A stretch of DNA of 64,000 nucleotides, taken from Ignavibacteriota bacterium. GTDB lineage: Bacteria > Bacteroidota > Ignavibacteria > UBA10030 > SZUA-254. The stretch's first letter is position 1; every line of letters starts with the position of its first letter. A program made the translations under genes and the position numbers. The stretch is from positions 1 to 64,000 of the forward strand of contig JANYJZ010000040.1 in the NCBI GenBank assembly GCA_025358305.1. Direction: 5' to 3'. Shown in pieces: positions 11,865 to 20,139 of this stretch. The notes beneath the pieces were generated by a model. The model was not told the DNA's origin, did not search any database, and saw only the letters and a program-made list of their open reading frames with translations.

Positions 11865-12287
11865 TTAGCTGTCGATCCTGCGCAAGCGCTTCTTGTCGCC
11901 GCGTCGTTTCTTGTCGTCGATACGGCGTTGTTTTGCCGCTCGCGAGACCTTCGTCTTCACCCGTTTCTTCACCGGCTTGAGGGCCGCTTGGAGGAGTTCG
12001 ATGAACCGCGTCAGCGCGGCCTGCCGGTTCTGCCACTGGCTGCGCGATTCCCCCGCGACGATGTGGAGGATGCCGGCCGTGTCGAGGCGCGACCGGAGGC
12101 GGTCGAAGAGGGTCGAGCGCATCTCGCCGGTGAGGGAGGGGGACTGGGCGACGTCGAAGAGGAGCTCGACCTTTGTCTCCACCTTGTTGACGTTCTGCCC
12201 GCCGGGCCCCCCGCCCCGCGCGTAGCGGAATTCCAGCTCCGACAGCGGGATCGTGAGCGCCTTTGTGATGATGAGTGCCGATCGCAT
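11865..12287 (-). CDS. arfB: Alternative ribosome-rescue peptidyl-tRNA hydrolase ArfB (YaeJ)
   Basis: 140 aa from the ATG at 12287; a TTG two codons upstream is possible but less likely. The release-factor-like 'ARGGGPGGQNVNKVETKVEL' carries the catalytic GGQ, with no codon-recognition domain. The Lys/Arg-rich tail ('KKRRGDKKRLRRID') inserts into the empty mRNA channel of stalled ribosomes in characterised ArfB. It hydrolyses peptidyl-tRNA on non-stop ribosomes. A TATGTTTG -10 element ends 5 nt before the ATG, so this gene also looks leaderless. Confidence 0.92.
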   Translation of the reverse strand: MRSALIITKALTIPLSELEFRYARGGGPGGQNVNKVETKVELLFDVAQSPSLTGEMRSTLFDRLRSRLDTAGILHIVAGESRSQWQNRQAALTRFIELLQAALKPVKKRVKTKVSRAAKQRRIDDKKRRGDKKRLRRIDS

Positions 12288-12292
12288 CCACA

Positions 12293-12321
12293 AACATACA
12301 AAATTGCCGCGTGATTTTCAC
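12293..12321 (-). promoter_or_regulatory. Promoter of arfB, leaderless layout
   Basis: GTGAAA (12321-12316; weak -35), 17-bp spacer, TATGTT (12298-12293), extended as TATGTTTG. Five bases then lead to the ATG at 12287. Confidence 0.4.
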
Positions 12322-12382
12322 GGTGGCGGGAGCTTCGTCCGATCACCGCCTTCAATTCCGGACTCGGAGGTCGGATTTATGG

Positions 12383-12411
12383 TTGCTTTTGCGGCGGCAT
12401 TTTTGTACACT
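12383..12411 (+). promoter_or_regulatory. Promoter of the DUF3857/transglutaminase-like pair
   Basis: TTGCTT (12383-12388), 17-bp spacer, TACACT (12406-12411). An inverted repeat CACTCA-N11-TGAGTG (12408-12430) covers the expected start of transcription and could be a repressor site. Confidence 0.4.
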
Positions 12412-12531
12412 CATGCAGATTTCGTGAGTGTGAAGCGTTCGCCGAATGCGGGGGGGAGCGAGACACGATGGGATGAAGGAATGATTCGCACCTCGACACT
12501 GAATCCACATGGTCTTTCGAGGATCGCCCCC

Positions 12532-14589
12532 ATGACCCGCCGCCATCTCACGCCACTCCTTTCGCTCTGTACCCTCTTCTCTCTCACCCTCCTGTCCCGA
12601 GCGGTCGCCGGCACCGACGCACCCTCCAAGGAATGGGGGAGCGTGCCCAAGGAGCACTTCCTCATGTCGTCCTATCCCCCCGACAGCAACGCCGCTGCCG
12701 TGATCCTCTTCGACATCGGGGAGGCGTCGTTCGACTCACACTATGATCTCGAGTTCCACCGGCACACCCGCATCAAGATCCTCCGGAAGGAAGGGTACGC
12801 GCTGGGCACGGTGAAGGTGAGCTATCAGAAGCAAGTGCAGGACATCGGCGACATCGAAGGACAGACGCTCACGCTCGGGCCGGACGGCACCATCGTCCGG
12901 CAGGAACTGAGGGGTGACGACGTCTTCACCGAGGAGAGCGGAGAAAAATTCAAGACGGCAAAATTCACCCTGCCGGCGCTCGCGCCCGGCAGCGTCATCG
13001 AGTACCGCTACACCATCCGATCGACGAACGCCAACTACCTCAATGATTGGTCGTTCCAGAATGACGAACCGACGCTGTGGAGCGAGTACGAGCTCCGGAC
13101 GCCGAACGTGTTCGCATACGCCTCCGTCACGCAAGGGTACCACAAGTTCTTCGTTCAGACGTCCGAACAGCTCAAGGAGTCCTTCCAGGGCCCCGCCGGC
13201 ATGAACATCGTCCCGGTCTCCCACTCTCACTGGGTCATGAAGGATGTCCCGGCCCTGCGCGAAGAGCCGTTCATCACGACGCTCGACGACTACCGCGACC
13301 GCGTCTCCTTTCAGCTTTCCGGCGTGGCGTGGCCCGGGGAGGTCCCGCAGCCGATCCTCCGCACATGGGACAAGGTCGCAGAGGAATTGCGGAATCACGA
13401 CCGTTTCGGCGGGCAGCTGGACGGCTCCGGGAGCATCCGCCGCGTCGCCGAATCGCTCTCGGCGGGGATCGCCGACTCGGCGAAAAGGATGGAGACGGTC
13501 TACGACTTTGTCCGCAACTCCATCCTCTGGGACGGCCGACATGCGCTCTTGACGCGGAAAGGCCTTGACGATGTGCTGGAAAAGAAGGCCGGCAACTCCG
13601 CGGACATCAACCTTCTTTTGACGGCAATGCTCCGCGCGGCCGGCCTGCCGGCGCACCCCGTGCTCGTGAGCACGCGCGACAACGGCAGGGTCGTCGATGT
13701 CTATCCTCTCGTCGACCAGTTCAACACGGTGATCTGCCAGACCTCCGTCGGCGGACGGAACGTCCTCCTGGATGCGACCGAGCGGATGCGCCCCTGGCCG
13801 CTTCTTCCGTTCGCGGATCTGAATCACACAGGATTTCTTGTGGGCGACGAGGGCTACGCCTGGATCCCGGTGGAACCCACCGCGACAAAGAACGCCCTCA
13901 CCTTCGCCGACATGTCGCTCGACACCGCCGGAGCGATCGCCGGCAGGGTGCAGATGAAGCTGTCGGATTATGCGGCGGTGAACGAACGAGCGGCCCTGGC
14001 GGAGGGGAAGCGCGACAAATTTGTCTCGTCGCTCCTGAAATCCTCGTCGAACGGGATCAACGTCGATGCCTTCACGATCACGAACGCGGACAGCGTGCTC
14101 CTGCCGCTCGTCGTCGATGCGACCGTGTCTTCAGGCGTCTATGCGCAGGTGCTGAACGACTTCATCTACGTGAACCCCATGACGGTTGCCCGGTCGATGG
14201 AGAACCCCTTCAAGCGCAATGAGCGGCTCTTTCCCGTGGACTACGCCTACCCAAGGTCGTTCACCTACAAGCTGAACCTCAAGATCCCCCCCGGCTACGC
14301 GCTGATGGATCATCCGAAGGACCTGACGATCCAGCTTCCCATGAACGGCGCCATGTATCAGCGCCTCAGCCAGCAGGCGGAGAATGTGTTCATGCTCTCT
14401 GTCCGATTTGACCTGACGCAGACCTCGTTTCCTCCCGAGAAGTACGCGGCTCTCCGAGAGTTCTACGAACGCATCGTGGCGCTTGAATCAGAACAGCTCG
14501 TGCTGCAGAAGCAGAGCAGTGCCGCTCCTGCGCCGACGAATCGTACGGAACCCGCGAAAGCAAGGGGCCGAACGAAGGGGAAGAAATGA
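12532..14589 (+). CDS. Secreted DUF3857/transglutaminase-like protein with degenerate active site
   Basis: 685 aa from the ATG at 12532, chosen because it starts a clean signal peptide ('MTRRHLTPLLSLCTLFSLTL') with GAGGAT upstream; the frame is open further upstream. A DUF3857 beta-sandwich (about residues 60-260) is followed by a transglutaminase-like core (about 310-440). The core has lost its catalytic residues. The expected Cys is Ser356 in 'KAGNSADIN', and the expected His of 'FNHVI' is Thr399 ('FNTVI'). The Asp in 'LLDAT' remains. It is probably a binding protein, not an enzyme, in the periplasm or outer membrane. Its TGA overlaps the next ATG (ATGA). Confidence 0.82.
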   Translation: MTRRHLTPLLSLCTLFSLTLLSRAVAGTDAPSKEWGSVPKEHFLMSSYPPDSNAAAVILFDIGEASFDSHYDLEFHRHTRIKILRKEGYALGTVKVSYQKQVQDIGDIEGQTLTLGPDGTIVRQELRGDDVFTEESGEKFKTAKFTLPALAPGSVIEYRYTIRSTNANYLNDWSFQNDEPTLWSEYELRTPNVFAYASVTQGYHKFFVQTSEQLKESFQGPAGMNIVPVSHSHWVMKDVPALREEPFITTLDDYRDRVSFQLSGVAWPGEVPQPILRTWDKVAEELRNHDRFGGQLDGSGSIRRVAESLSAGIADSAKRMETVYDFVRNSILWDGRHALLTRKGLDDVLEKKAGNSADINLLLTAMLRAAGLPAHPVLVSTRDNGRVVDVYPLVDQFNTVICQTSVGGRNVLLDATERMRPWPLLPFADLNHTGFLVGDEGYAWIPVEPTATKNALTFADMSLDTAGAIAGRVQMKLSDYAAVNERAALAEGKRDKFVSSLLKSSSNGINVDAFTITNADSVLLPLVVDATVSSGVYAQVLNDFIYVNPMTVARSMENPFKRNERLFPVDYAYPRSFTYKLNLKIPPGYALMDHPKDLTIQLPMNGAMYQRLSQQAENVFMLSVRFDLTQTSFPPEKYAALREFYERIVALESEQLVLQKQSSAAPAPTNRTEPAKARGRTKGKK

Positions 14590-16511
14590 GCACCTGCCGC
14601 GCTCTTGCGACCAGTTTCGTGCTGATGTGCGCCTGCTCGGGCCGGGCTCTCACCGCAAAGATGCCGTCGCCGGAGACCTACCGCGCTTCGGCCATTTCGC
14701 CCGCGTTGCTGCCGAATGCGCATGCGGTCATCCGGTTCGAGCGGAGCGAATTTTCTGCCACGGATCTCCGCACGGCGACGTACAAGGTCGTGCGGATCGC
14801 GACGATCCTCGATCCAGAAGGACGCGACTTCGGAGAACTGCGCCTCTTCTACGACCGGTTCCGGGAGCTGCGGAGCGTCAAGGGAGCCTTGTATGATGCG
14901 GGGGGTGAAAAGATCAGATCGTTGGAAGAGCAGGATCTCAAGGATTACGCAGCGACGCAGGAATTCTCCCTCTATGACGACAATCGCATTCGCATCGCAT
15001 CGCTCTTCCACAGCGGATATCCCTATACCGTCGAATTTTCATACGAGTACCAGTATGACGGATACATCGCCTGGCCTTCGTGGTATCCGGAAGAGAGGAA
15101 CGCCTCGGTCGAGTATTCCGCCATCGAACTGACGCTTCCGAAGGACATGTCGCACCGCTCCTGGACCGACATGACCATAGCGCCGGCGGTCACGCACGAA
15201 GGCGGCCGGGATCGCTATCTCTGGGAGGCGTTCTCCCTCCTTCCATTCGAACCTGAGCCGTACGGCCCGGCATTGATCGATCAATACCAGTGCGTCAAGC
15301 TCGCGCCCGACAAGTTTGAGATCGACAAGCACGCCGGCGATCTCTCCACGTGGAAGTCGTTCGGAAAGTGGTTCTTCGGCCTCCAGACGAACAGGCAGAC
15401 GCTTCCTCCGCCGGTCGTTCAGGATGCCGCCGCTCTGGCCGCCGGGAAGGCGACGCAGCGCGAGACCGTGCGCGCGCTGTACAATTATCTGCAGTCAAAG
15501 ACGCGGTACGTGAGCGTTCAGCTCGGCATCGGGGGCTGGCAGCCCTTCGACGCGACGTTCGTGTCGGAGCGCGGCTACGGCGACTGCAAGGCGCTGACGA
15601 ACTATATGCAGTCGCTTCTTCAGTCGGCGGGCATTCGGTCGTTTCCGGTGCTCATCAGCAACGGCGATCCGGCTCGCGGCCTTGACGCCTCATTCCCTTC
15701 GAATGTCTTTAACCATGTGATCCTCTGCGTTCCTGACCGGCCGGATACGATCTGGCTGGAGTGTACAAGTCAGACGGTGCCGTTCGGCCATATCGAAAGC
15801 AGCAACGAGAACCGTCTGGCCCTTCTGGTCACGCCTGAAGGAGGGGAGATCGTCCGGACTCCCGCGAGCCGGGCGGGCGAGAACCTCCAGCTTCGGCGGG
15901 CGAAGGTGGAACTTGCCCCCGACGGCCGCGGGAGCGCCAGCGTCCGGTCGATCTTCGCGGGGGACCAGCAGGATGAGGCCAGAAGCGGGCTTGTGGGAGT
16001 CTCTCCGCAGGACAGGGACGACTGGGTGCGAGAACACATCGAGATCCCGTCCTATACGCTTGACGCCGCAGATTACTCCCGTCTCGCGTCCGACGACGGG
16101 ATGCTGGAATATTCGTTGCGGCTGCAGCTTCCACGGTATGCCACCATGTCGGGGAACCGGCTGATCTTCCAGCCGAACCTTATGGATAAGCGCGCCACCG
16201 TACCGCCGCTGCTCTCGCGCCGATCCCAGCCGATACGCCTGGCCTATCCCTACGTGGACATCGACACGATCGAATATCATCTGCCGCAGGGATATGCCGT
16301 CGAGGCGCTCCCGACAGCGGTGTCGCTCGCAACCTCCTTCGCCGCTTACTCCTCCAGTACGACGGCCCCTGATCCTTCGACCATCCTCTACATCCGCCGT
16401 TTAGAAGTCTCGTCGACGGAGCTGCCGCCGGAGAAGTACGGCGAGTTCCGCAAGTTCTACCAGGATGTCGCGCAATCGGACAAGGCGAACGCATCCATTG
16501 TCAGGGAGTGA
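14586..16511 (+). CDS. Secreted DUF3857/transglutaminase-like protein with intact catalytic triad
   Basis: 641 aa, translationally coupled to the preceding homologue by an ATGA overlap. A signal peptide (residues 1-24) precedes DUF3857 and a transglutaminase-like domain in which Cys ('GYGDCKALTN'), His ('VFNHVIL') and the acidic residue ('WLECTSQ') are all present. A papain-like hydrolase or acyl-transferase chemistry is therefore possible. The C-terminal ~130 residues form another beta domain ending in the 'LPPEKYGEFRKFYQDV' type helix seen in the partner ('FPPEKYAALREFYERI'), so the two arose by duplication. Substrate unknown. Confidence 0.85.
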   Translation: MSTCRALATSFVLMCACSGRALTAKMPSPETYRASAISPALLPNAHAVIRFERSEFSATDLRTATYKVVRIATILDPEGRDFGELRLFYDRFRELRSVKGALYDAGGEKIRSLEEQDLKDYAATQEFSLYDDNRIRIASLFHSGYPYTVEFSYEYQYDGYIAWPSWYPEERNASVEYSAIELTLPKDMSHRSWTDMTIAPAVTHEGGRDRYLWEAFSLLPFEPEPYGPALIDQYQCVKLAPDKFEIDKHAGDLSTWKSFGKWFFGLQTNRQTLPPPVVQDAAALAAGKATQRETVRALYNYLQSKTRYVSVQLGIGGWQPFDATFVSERGYGDCKALTNYMQSLLQSAGIRSFPVLISNGDPARGLDASFPSNVFNHVILCVPDRPDTIWLECTSQTVPFGHIESSNENRLALLVTPEGGEIVRTPASRAGENLQLRRAKVELAPDGRGSASVRSIFAGDQQDEARSGLVGVSPQDRDDWVREHIEIPSYTLDAADYSRLASDDGMLEYSLRLQLPRYATMSGNRLIFQPNLMDKRATVPPLLSRRSQPIRLAYPYVDIDTIEYHLPQGYAVEALPTAVSLATSFAAYSSSTTAPDPSTILYIRRLEVSSTELPPEKYGEFRKFYQDVAQSDKANASIVRE

Positions 16512-16584
16512 GCAGGGAGGGGCGGGATCACGATCGAGCGCGCATGGGTGATCAGCGCCCGGCGTGATCGTCGCGCCGGCCTCC

Positions 16585-16613
16585 TTGCAAATCCGCCCCG
16601 GTCTGCGTATGTT
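16585..16613 (+). promoter_or_regulatory. Promoter of mfd
   Basis: TTGCAA (16585-16590), 17-bp spacer, TATGTT (16608-16613). Predicted transcription starts near 16620, about 95 nt before the chosen ATG at 16714, which argues against the upstream in-frame start at 16564. Confidence 0.45.
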
Positions 16614-16713
16614 ACAGCACCCTTACTGCAGCGTATCCTCCCCGGACGCTGCGGTAGGGGTGGAGTGTTTTCATCCCGTGCAGCGCGCGGGTCACATTCA
16701 CCTGTCATGGGCC

Positions 16714-19700
16714 ATGCTGAAGAAGCTGAAAGAAGACATCGTCCGGTCGGCGCCGATGCGCGACCTCCAGGAACGGGCAGGTTCGCTCAGGGCCGGCGAC
16801 CGCCTCGTCCTCACTGGCATGGCCGGCTCCCTTCTGGCCTTTGGCGCGGCCGCACTCTTCGAGCGGACCAGGCGGCAGATCCTCCTCATCGGCGCCGACG
16901 AGGAGAGAAGCGAGAAGCTGCGCGATGACTGCGCGCTCCTCGTCGGCGAATCCGGCGTGCGGTTCTTCGGCGCGCGGCCTTCCCATCCTGCGCAATCCCT
17001 CGACCTGAGCTCGTCGATCGCGCAGATCGAGACGCTTAAATCCCTCGCCGCAGGGACCGTCACGCTCACGGTCGCGTCGCCCCATTCGGTGGGCGAACGC
17101 GTCCCCCTGCCCGCCTCGTTTCGGAAGACCGTCATCGAGATCACGAAGGACGCCGAGGTCCCGTTCCAAGCGCTCCTCGCTCAGCTCGACAGCCTCGGTT
17201 TCGAACGGAAGGACTTTGTCGGCGCGTACGGCGAATATGCCGTGCGCGGGGGGATCGTCGACATCTTCCCGTTCGTCGGCGAAAACCCGGTCCGCATCGA
17301 GTTCTGGGGCGACACCGTGGAATCCGTGCGCGAGTTCGACGTACTCTCCCAGCGCTCCATCCGGGAACTCCAGACCGCCAGCGTCGTGCCGGACCTCGCC
17401 GGCGCGCCCGAAGGTCCCGGCGGCGAAACGGCGGCCGCGCCCGAAGGGACGATCTTTGACTACCTGGCGTCCGACGCGATCGTTCTGATCGATAATTCCG
17501 CGAGCGTCGAACGGGAGATCGAGGAGCTTCTGAAGGAGGGAGCGGCGGGGCTCCTGACCTTCGGGGAGGTCCTCGAACGCTCCCGGAAGCATCCGCTCAT
17601 ACTGTCCGAGAGCCGCGCCACGGCTCGGCCTGAGGGCGCCCCCGTGATCGACGCCGCCGCGCTCTCGCAGCCGTCGTTCAACGGCAGCGTCGCACTGCTC
17701 CTCCAAAAACTCGAGAGCCTCGGGCATGAGGGGTACCGGTGCATCCTCGCCTGCGACACAAAGGAGGAGGCGGAACGCTTGCGGGAACTCCTCGAGGAGA
17801 CGATGCGTCTTCCCCCGAAGGAGCCCGGCGCCGCCGCCCCCGCGCAGCTCGACCAAATGCCGGAGTTCCTCACCGAGACCATCCATTCGGGATTCCTCTC
17901 TCCGGATGCGCGCATCGCCGTCTTCACCGAGCACGAGATCTTCAACCGCCTGCGGCGCCGGGGGACGGGGAAGCGCCGAAGGTTCAAGGGCCTCTCGTCG
18001 AAGGAGCTCCAGCAGCTGCGGCGCGGCGATTACGTCGTGCACGTCGACTACGGCATTGGCACGTTCGCCGGCCTCACGAAGCTTCAGGTCGCCGGGTCGG
18101 AGCAGGAAGTACTGAAGCTCGTCTTCCTCGAGAATGACGTCCTCTATGTCAATCTCAACTTCGTCAACAGGGTCCAGAAATACTCCTCGCAGGAGGGCCA
18201 CGTTCCGAAGCTCACGCGGCTGGGAACGGGCGAGTGGGACCGCATCACCGAGCGGGCGAAGCGCCGCATCAAGGACATCGCCCGAGACATCATCGCGCTC
18301 TACGCCCGCCGGAAGCAGGAGCCGGGGTTCGCCTTCGGCCCCGACACCCACTGGCAGAAGGAGCTCGAGGCGTCGTTCATGTACGAAGACACGCCGGACC
18401 AAGCCAGGGCGACGCACGAAGTGAAGGCGGACATGGAGCTGCCGACGCCGATGGACCGGCTCGTCTGCGGGGACGTCGGGTTTGGGAAGACGGAGGTCGC
18501 CGTCCGGGCAGCGTTCAAGGCCGTCATGGGCGGGAAGCAGGTCGCCGTGCTCGTGCCGACGACGATCCTCGCCATCCAGCACTACAACACGTTCCATGAC
18601 CGGCTGTCGCGCTACACTACCCGCATTGAGCACCTTACCCGGTTCAAGTCGGCGAAGGAGCAAAAGGCCACCGTCGAGGCCCTCCGGCAGGGGAACGTCG
18701 ACATCATCATTGGGACGCACCGCATCCTTTCGAAGGACATCGCATTCAAGGATATTGGCCTCCTCATCATCGACGAGGAGCACCGGTTCGGCGTGGCGGC
18801 GAAGGAAAAGCTGCGCCAGCTCAAGGCGAACGTCGACACGCTCGCAATGACGGCCACGCCGATCCCGCGGACGCTCCATTTCTCCCTCATCGGCGCGCGC
18901 GACCTCTCGATCATCAACACGCCGCCGCGCAACCGTATGCCCATTCTCACGGAGATCATCCCCGCGGATGCCACCGGCCGCCAGACGCACTGGAAGCTCA
19001 TCCGGGAAGCGGTCATGAAGGAGCTCTACCGCGGGGGGCAGATCTACTTCGTGCACGACCGGGTAAGCAACATCGACGCGATCGCCGAGCAGGTCCGTAA
19101 GCACGTGCCTGAAGCGAAGGTCCACGTGGCGCACGGCCAGATGTCAGGGCACGAGCTGGAGAAGGCGATGCTCAACTTCCTGGAAAAGCGGCACGACGTG
19201 CTCGTCTGCACGAAGATCATCGAGTCGGGCGTCGACATTCCGAGCGTGAATACGATCATCATCAACCGGGCCGACATGTTCGGACTCGCCGAGCTCTACC
19301 AGCTCCGCGGCCGCGTCGGCCGGTCGAACGTGCAGGCGTACAGCTACCTTCTCACGCCTCCCCTGAGCGTCATGCCGAAGCAGTCGCTGCGGCGCCTCCA
19401 GGTCATCGAAGAGTTCACCGAGTTGGGATCGGGGTTCAATCTCGCGATGCGTGACCTGGAGATCCGGGGTGCAGGGAACCTCCTCGGCGGAGAGCAGTCG
19501 GGATACATCATGGAAATGGGCTTCGAGATGTACGAGCGCATCGTCCGGGAGGCCGTCGAGGAGCTCCGTCAAGATGAGTTCCAGGAGATCTTCCAGAAGC
19601 AGGGCGGCGCGTCGGCGGGAGAACCGGCCCGCGTCGAGACCGTCATCGAGTCCGACATCGAATCGCTCATCCCGGATGTCTACATCGAATCCGATGCGGA

Positions 19701-20139
19701 GCGGCTCGACGTCTACCGAAGGATCTACGGGACGCACTCGGCCGACGAACTCCGGGCGCTCCAGCTGGAACTCCGCGACCGGTTCGGAGAATACCCCGAA
19801 GAGGTCGGGAACCTCTTCGGGCTCGTCGACCTGCGGCTGCGCGCCGCGGATCTCCGGCTGCAAAAGCTCGCTTTACGGGCCGGAACATTCAAGGTGACGC
19901 TGCCGCCGGGCACCGACACGGCGTTTTATGGCGAAAGCGACGGCTCCTCGGCCCCGTTCCAACGGATCATGAAGCGCATGGCGGCGGAGCGGAAGAAGCG
20001 CGTGCAGTTCCGCCAAGAAGGCGAGATGCTCTCATTGACGTTCACGCTTGACGGGGCTGCGAGCGCGGCCGATCGGATGGACGAAGCGCGGAGGTACCTC
20101 GATGAAGTGCGCGGGTGGGCGGCGGCGGACGGAGCCTAG
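16714..20139 (+). CDS. mfd: Transcription-repair coupling factor
   Basis: 1141 aa, the family's usual length, from the ATG at 16714 ('MLKKLKEDIVRSAPMRDLQE'). In order: a UvrB-like domain (about residues 1-330); the RNA polymerase interaction domain beginning 'LRRGDYVVHVDYGIGTFAGL' (about 435-500); a RecG-like translocase with Walker A 'GFGKTEV' (about 589) and 'IIDEEHRFG' (about 686); the 'SGVDIPSVNTII' and 'QLRGRVGRS' motifs; and the C-terminal regulatory domain. It removes stalled RNA polymerase at DNA lesions and recruits UvrA. The end overlaps the convergent small gene through a shared CTAG. Confidence 0.96.
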   Translation: MLKKLKEDIVRSAPMRDLQERAGSLRAGDRLVLTGMAGSLLAFGAAALFERTRRQILLIGADEERSEKLRDDCALLVGESGVRFFGARPSHPAQSLDLSSSIAQIETLKSLAAGTVTLTVASPHSVGERVPLPASFRKTVIEITKDAEVPFQALLAQLDSLGFERKDFVGAYGEYAVRGGIVDIFPFVGENPVRIEFWGDTVESVREFDVLSQRSIRELQTASVVPDLAGAPEGPGGETAAAPEGTIFDYLASDAIVLIDNSASVEREIEELLKEGAAGLLTFGEVLERSRKHPLILSESRATARPEGAPVIDAAALSQPSFNGSVALLLQKLESLGHEGYRCILACDTKEEAERLRELLEETMRLPPKEPGAAAPAQLDQMPEFLTETIHSGFLSPDARIAVFTEHEIFNRLRRRGTGKRRRFKGLSSKELQQLRRGDYVVHVDYGIGTFAGLTKLQVAGSEQEVLKLVFLENDVLYVNLNFVNRVQKYSSQEGHVPKLTRLGTGEWDRITERAKRRIKDIARDIIALYARRKQEPGFAFGPDTHWQKELEASFMYEDTPDQARATHEVKADMELPTPMDRLVCGDVGFGKTEVAVRAAFKAVMGGKQVAVLVPTTILAIQHYNTFHDRLSRYTTRIEHLTRFKSAKEQKATVEALRQGNVDIIIGTHRILSKDIAFKDIGLLIIDEEHRFGVAAKEKLRQLKANVDTLAMTATPIPRTLHFSLIGARDLSIINTPPRNRMPILTEIIPADATGRQTHWKLIREAVMKELYRGGQIYFVHDRVSNIDAIAEQVRKHVPEAKVHVAHGQMSGHELEKAMLNFLEKRHDVLVCTKIIESGVDIPSVNTIIINRADMFGLAELYQLRGRVGRSNVQAYSYLLTPPLSVMPKQSLRRLQVIEEFTELGSGFNLAMRDLEIRGAGNLLGGEQSGYIMEMGFEMYERIVREAVEELRQDEFQEIFQKQGGASAGEPARVETVIESDIESLIPDVYIESDAERLDVYRRIYGTHSADELRALQLELRDRFGEYPEEVGNLFGLVDLRLRAADLRLQKLALRAGTFKVTLPPGTDTAFYGESDGSSAPFQRIMKRMAAERKKRVQFRQEGEMLSLTFTLDGAASAADRMDEARRYLDEVRGWAAADGA

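Follow-up and report, generated by a model that had tools for sequence, protein, structure and literature searches.

Several transglutaminase-like domains that lost their catalytic residues have been described. As reported in the accessible part of PMC12239564, RloB, encoded in an operon with enzymes, carries an inactive transglutaminase-like domain that faces the periplasm and has a genetically assigned role. The polymorphic toxins treated in the accessible part of PMC3482391 contain exported, inactive transglutaminase domains in which C, H and D were lost and for which peptide binding was proposed. Protein 4.2 (EPB42) is named an inactive transglutaminase homologue in the available text of PMC10318531. 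For the DUF3857 domain, the open-access literature yielded one passing mention and no known function, and we found there no description of a pair formed by an inactive ("dead") and an active ("live") homologue.

Two adjacent genes arranged as such a pair, with products named here P1 (dead) and P2 (live), are located in the 64,000-nucleotide stretch of an Ignavibacteriota bacterium genome that was analysed (the window). RloB, from the Pseudomonas rlo operon, is a membrane protein with seven transmembrane helices, unlike P1 and P2, and its partners, in the accessible part of PMC12239564, are an aspartic protease and an ATP-grasp protein, with no active homologue. A test for the RloB-type arrangement, i.e. 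seven transmembrane helices after the domain, was negative: beyond the core, the P1 model consisted mainly of beta structure, no helix there was longer than 18 residues, and the one long helix was N-terminal (residues 6-25). A Pfam search up to E 1 gave no RloB-type match either. In the polymorphic toxins, the domain forms the N-terminal part of RHS proteins and is not described with an active homologue in the accessible part of PMC3482391. Protein 4.2 is, like P1, a pseudoenzyme of the transglutaminase fold, and its structures were among the P1 matches with Z about 9. It is an animal protein with a scaffold role and is not known to be paired with an active copy in an operon.

Locus organization and protein architecture

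The first-pass annotation had read the locus as two overlapping genes for homologous secreted proteins, which agrees with our results (Table 1). P1 and P2 aligned with E 1.2e-11 and 22% identity, and both belong to PF12969 (DUF3857; 50.2 bits for P1 and 75.1 bits for P2, gathering cut-off 24.6) and to PF01841 (Transglut_core; 35.7 bits for P1, and 23.0 for P2, the latter only at the cut-off of 23). They were the only DUF3857 matches in the genome. The length of P1 was counted from the ATG codon, and its open frame extends upstream to a GTG at 12253. Secretion was judged by eye from the hydrophobic N-termini of both proteins; across the dead and live families, the N-termini mostly had the look of ordinary signal peptides, also by eye, and a lipobox-like motif was seen in 9 of the 88 dead genes and in 2 of the 79 live ones. 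The Pfam search revealed no repeats or toxin domains in P1 or P2, the NCBIfam search gave no match, a single-sequence search of the PDB returned nothing real, and a promoter and terminator scan of the locus gave nothing useful.

Table 1. Features of the P1-P2 locus in window coordinates.
Feature	Position	Strand	Remarks
RF-1-domain protein, upstream neighbour, divergent	11865..12293	-	presumably ArfB-like; adjoins mfd without the pair in relatives
P1, dead partner	12532..14589	+	685 aa; DUF3857, transglutaminase-like core without Cys/His, C-terminal beta domain
Ser356 of P1 (TCC)	13597..13599	+	catalytic Cys position; alignment
Thr399 of P1 (ACG)	13726..13728	+	catalytic His position; alignment
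Asp414 of P1 (GAT)	13771..13773	+	retained third position; alignment
ATGA overlap	14586..14589	+	P1 stop / P2 start
P2, live partner	14586..16511	+	641 aa; architecture as P1, with Cys334, His377, Glu392
Cys334 of P2 (TGC)	15585..15587	+	YGDCKAL motif; alignment
His377 of P2 (CAT)	15714..15716	+	alignment
Glu392 of P2 (GAG)	15759..15761	+	third position; alignment
Downstream neighbour, which we take to be mfd-like	16702..20139	+	TRCF, UvrB_inter and DEAD domains; start codon unsettled, frame opens at 16564

The AlphaFold models (pLDDT 92.6 for P1 and 92.3 for P2) both matched transglutaminase-fold structures. The best match of either was PDB 3KD4, the BDI_1141 protein of Parabacteroides distasonis annotated as 'putative protease', with Z 18.8, rmsd 5.3 and 482 aligned residues for P1, and Z 26.7, rmsd 3.7 and 487 aligned residues for P2. 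The matches span the whole mature P1 and P2, but the identity is only 12-14%. Since Pro takes the Cys position of 3KD4 in the profile alignment (YGTPLEI for YGDCKAL), this sole solved relative is probably catalytically dead, and hence also a pseudoenzyme. No paper about BDI_1141 or 3KD4 was found by title in the open-access literature. The DUF3857 domain (residues 47-271 of P1 and 43-243 of P2) resembled the N-terminal domains of M1 aminopeptidases and of ribophorin I/OST1, with Z 8 to 11. Residues 432-640 of the P2 model (window 15879-16505) gave a middling match to the FMO antenna protein found in green sulfur bacteria (Z 8.1, rmsd 3.8, 134 aligned), which may reflect just a common arrangement.

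Catalytic positions and their orthologues

Ser356, Thr399 and Asp414 of P1 share alignment columns with Cys334, His377 and Glu392 of P2, and the three positions are structurally equivalent in both models, located at a helix start, at a strand start and at the residue after the next strand. Codons and alignment columns thus confirmed the initial assignment of Ser and Thr to the catalytic Cys and His positions of P1, as well as the retention of Cys, His and an acidic residue in P2. The acidic residue itself differs, being Asp in the dead and Glu in the live protein. Judged from these residues, P2 would be an active transglutaminase-like cysteine enzyme, whereas P1 lacks the Cys and His that define one.

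P1 found a match in 14 of 60 relatives and in 122 of 296 genomes of the phylum. A first set, composed of 60 fetched loci and the window, contained 130 DUF3857-type ORFs. Cys did not occur at the nucleophile column in any of its 71 dead-type genes or gene pieces, one piece being gapped at this column, and 11 of the 71 showed Ser-His-Asp. The 48 live-type genes were Cys-His-Glu (46) or Cys-His-Asp (2), and seven further Cys-His-Asp genes belonged to another, mostly single-gene, type. For a second set, named genomes were scanned with the live profile, which is blind to the dead gene, and the best 80 of 587 confirmed matches were taken. All 80 live genes in this best 80 of 587 were Cys-His-Glu. 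The 97 dead genes of the same loci (best 80 of 587) had Val (34), Ala (26), Ser (26), Gly (4), Thr (3), Glu (2), Arg (1) or Cys (1) at the Cys column, Tyr (84), His (4), Asp (3), Asn (3), Ser (2) or Phe (1) at the His column, and Asp at the third position in 97/97. The single Cys-bearing dead gene among these best 80 of 587 loci has Tyr at the His column.

Consequently, no dead protein with both Cys and His was found among the 71 first-set genes or pieces and the 97 genes of the second set (best 80 of 587), and it is orthologues of this kind that the first-pass annotation had named beforehand as refuting its reading. The conservation of Ser and Thr in orthologous pairs, which it had proposed to check, did not hold; Val, Ala and Ser mostly occupy the Cys column, and mostly Tyr the His column. 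In two relatives, a single dead copy is split into two frames (L077:1-1988 and L088:4867-6955).

Pairing across the phylum

In the live-selected loci (best 80 of 587), the dead gene was located upstream on the same strand in 78/80, with a median gap of 4 bp. The gap did not exceed 150 bp in 75 of these 78 pairs, 19 pairs overlapped or touched, and 10 had the 4-base overlap seen in the window (all within the best 80 of 587). The two loci without an adjacent dead gene (L157 and L175, again among the best 80 of 587) come from genomes with strong dead matches elsewhere. In some families, the live gene comes first (LD or LDD, 11 of 61 loci of the first set), with the genes still adjacent, and some first-set loci have extra dead copies in tandem. 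A conserved third gene was considered and rejected, as the commonest other neighbour family occurred in 19 of 141 loci. The 78/80 pairing (best 80 of 587), the adjacency and the lack of a commoner neighbour show that the pair is the conserved unit. The coupling is phylum-wide and not confined to the window, and loci of Chitinophaga and Pontibacter are among those that have it.

The census covered 296 genomes, which are related, so that the counts are not independent events. Both profiles separated well, with weakest counted best E of 1e-84 and the next at 3.5e-68 for the dead profile, and 6e-117 and 2.5e-78 for the live one. The dead gene was present in 87 genomes, the live gene in 72 and both in 71; in the sole live-only genome, the dead match is truncated where its contig stops. 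The dead gene occurred without the live one in 16/87 genomes, of which 14 belong to a single family (f32) and several are in a divergent subgroup. The live profile was applied again to six genomes in which a dead locus is orphaned, and a live gene was found only in the one that also has a normal pair (G335). No exported enzyme stood out by eye among the neighbours, with putative gene names, of six orphan loci. The counts are consistent with an asymmetry: the live gene needs the dead one, and the dead gene does without the live one.

The divergent dead subgroup has Gln or Ala at the Cys place (L130:6632-8662, L131:6022-8016 and L136:6951-8942), and the live gene is absent from two of these three genomes. 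The neighbouring genes look like dihydroorotase and tsaB, presumably.

Phylogeny and selection

A quick, unrooted tree of 127 rows, several of them long, was calculated with the three catalytic columns masked. It placed 69 dead rows in one branch (SH-aLRT 98) and 48 live rows in another (99), both across the phylum. The wider transglutaminase superfamily is catalytic, and as the root was not inferred, the direction of change, i.e. loss of catalysis, rests on this. In a genome of the window's order, three Ala-Arg-Asp homologues come after a DUF3857 gene of the Cys-His-Asp type (L084:4920-12784), with 4-base overlaps at two joints. The three homologues lie outside the main dead branch, beside the Cys-His-Asp gene, and the array looks like a separate, independent origin of the dead-live arrangement.

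In close pairs, dN/dS was 0.04-0.27 for dead genes (8 of 11 comparisons with finite dS) and 0.05-0.31 for live genes (13 with finite dS among the 14 listed of 17). The dead gene is under purifying selection, as is the live gene. The ratio of dead to live mean distances was 1.09 over 72 adjacent pairs, and the two distance tables correlated at 0.85, a value that shared species history alone would give. Asn360, Ser380 and Asp414 are invariant in the dead family, and Thr381, Arg382 and Gly385 nearly so (63 rows). Conservation in this family is highest in the stretch from the Cys to the Asp position (0.49, the mean being 0.40), which contains 11 of the top 60 conserved residues, an enrichment that is marginal (one-sided p 0.055). 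In the live family, YGDCKAL around the Cys and the RYVSxQLGIGGWQP stretch are nearly invariant.

Proposed role of the dead partner

The proposal of a pseudoenzyme-enzyme pair is supported by the phylum-wide pairing, the separate dead and live branches and the purifying selection on the dead gene: the two proteins are homologues, one lacks the catalytic residues, and they are conserved together. That the pair was kept across much of the phylum suggests that the inactive partner has a real job. Our preferred reading, held with roughly even confidence, is an ancient exported two-gene module working as a complex, in which P2 would be the enzyme and P1 a binding subunit without catalysis. A DUF3857/transglutaminase-like cysteine enzyme would have been duplicated, and one of the two copies would have lost catalysis and been retained. 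P2 would be the working thiol enzyme, with Cys334-His377-Glu392 as its putative triad, and probably cuts or joins peptide or amide bonds in the cell envelope. In P1, the fold, the Asp and the invariant residues round the former active site are retained; this protein might hold or present the substrate or anchor the enzyme, and the gene coupling would let both be made in step for the complex. Our data show the pairing, the catalytic loss, the selection and, across genomes, the dependence of the live gene on the dead one. Export (probably to the periplasm), complex formation, substrate presentation and the reaction are steps that we infer. The enzyme needs the dead partner and not the reverse, which points to the dead protein as the binding subunit. 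By analogy, precedents exist for inactive transglutaminase domains that may act as binding or regulatory parts, namely RloB (PMC12239564) and the polymorphic toxins (PMC3482391), as far as the accessible parts of these sources go. Against this reading, the 16 dead-only genomes mean that the dead protein cannot serve this enzyme alone, the enrichment of conserved residues in the former active-site stretch is marginal, and the tandem extra dead copies allow for substitution or specialisation.

The dead protein could also be a stand-alone envelope binding protein, with P2 acting on or beside it, e.g. by processing or cross-linking P1 or P1-bound material, in no lasting complex. This is a possible, though not a probable, explanation; it would account for the 16/87 dead-bearing genomes that miss the live gene and for the tandem dead copies, and it fits the peptide binding proposed for inactive domains elsewhere (accessible part of PMC3482391), but the tight adjacency or overlap in nearly all live loci (best 80 of 587) and the lack of live genes without dead ones indicate a functional link. 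Somewhat more doubtful is a reading that puts the dead protein at the centre of the system. It would be an envelope receptor that binds a peptide or cell-wall ligand in its ex-catalytic cleft (Asn360, Ser380-Thr381-Arg382, Asp414), with the live protein as an obligate client modifying the bound ligand. If true, this would be a phylum-wide two-subunit envelope-modifying machine, with a receptor that evolved from an enzyme and can outlive it. We consider it unlikely that the dead protein serves the live enzyme only, as an allosteric activator, a folding chaperone or an immunity-like inhibitor. The gene coupling and the lack of live-only genomes would suit such a role, but the 16 dead-only genomes of 87 speak against it, as does the slow evolution of the dead gene, close to that of the enzyme gene (ratio 1.09).

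Two further explanations fare worse against the orthologues. Some other catalytic chemistry in P1, such as a Ser-His-Asp triad, has a counterpart in the 11/71 dead-type sequences noted above for the first set, but the window's P1 is Ser-Thr-Asp, the nucleophile place is Val, Ala or Gly in 64/97 and the His place Tyr in 84/97 dead genes (best 80 of 587), and we regard it as very improbable. A local mutation, a sequencing error or a decaying duplicate, for which only the single broken copies in L077 and L088 speak, is refuted by the orthologues, given the phylum-wide conservation and the purifying selection, and has practically no likelihood left. DUF3857 transglutaminase-like proteins are widespread in the phylum. 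Their dead-live pairing changes the way to annotate, express and assay them, namely together. The pair is also a clean and old example in which to study the retention of a pseudoenzyme, and the dead-only genomes provide a natural test of its own role.

History of the copy in the window

The pair was absent from 14/14 other genomes searched of the window's family, some of which are incomplete, and in 8 of these 14 the RF-1-domain gene directly precedes mfd without the pair (window region 11865-16702). In careful trees, both window genes grouped with a few same-class pairs, with support of 82/72 for the dead gene (not starred) and 97/95 for the live gene (starred). The absence in family relatives and the same-class placement imply that the pair either entered the window's lineage as one unit, from within the class, or was lost repeatedly by relatives. 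The GC content and third-position GC of the pair are ordinary for the window. A distant horizontal origin, raised by a quick tree that put both genes nearest other families, is unsupported, as the careful trees placed them in their own class. The best live match of the second set (best 80 of 587) lies on a 6.3 kb contig of a MAG labelled Gemmatimonadota (L137:921-5147), and reflects either cross-phylum transfer or mis-binning.
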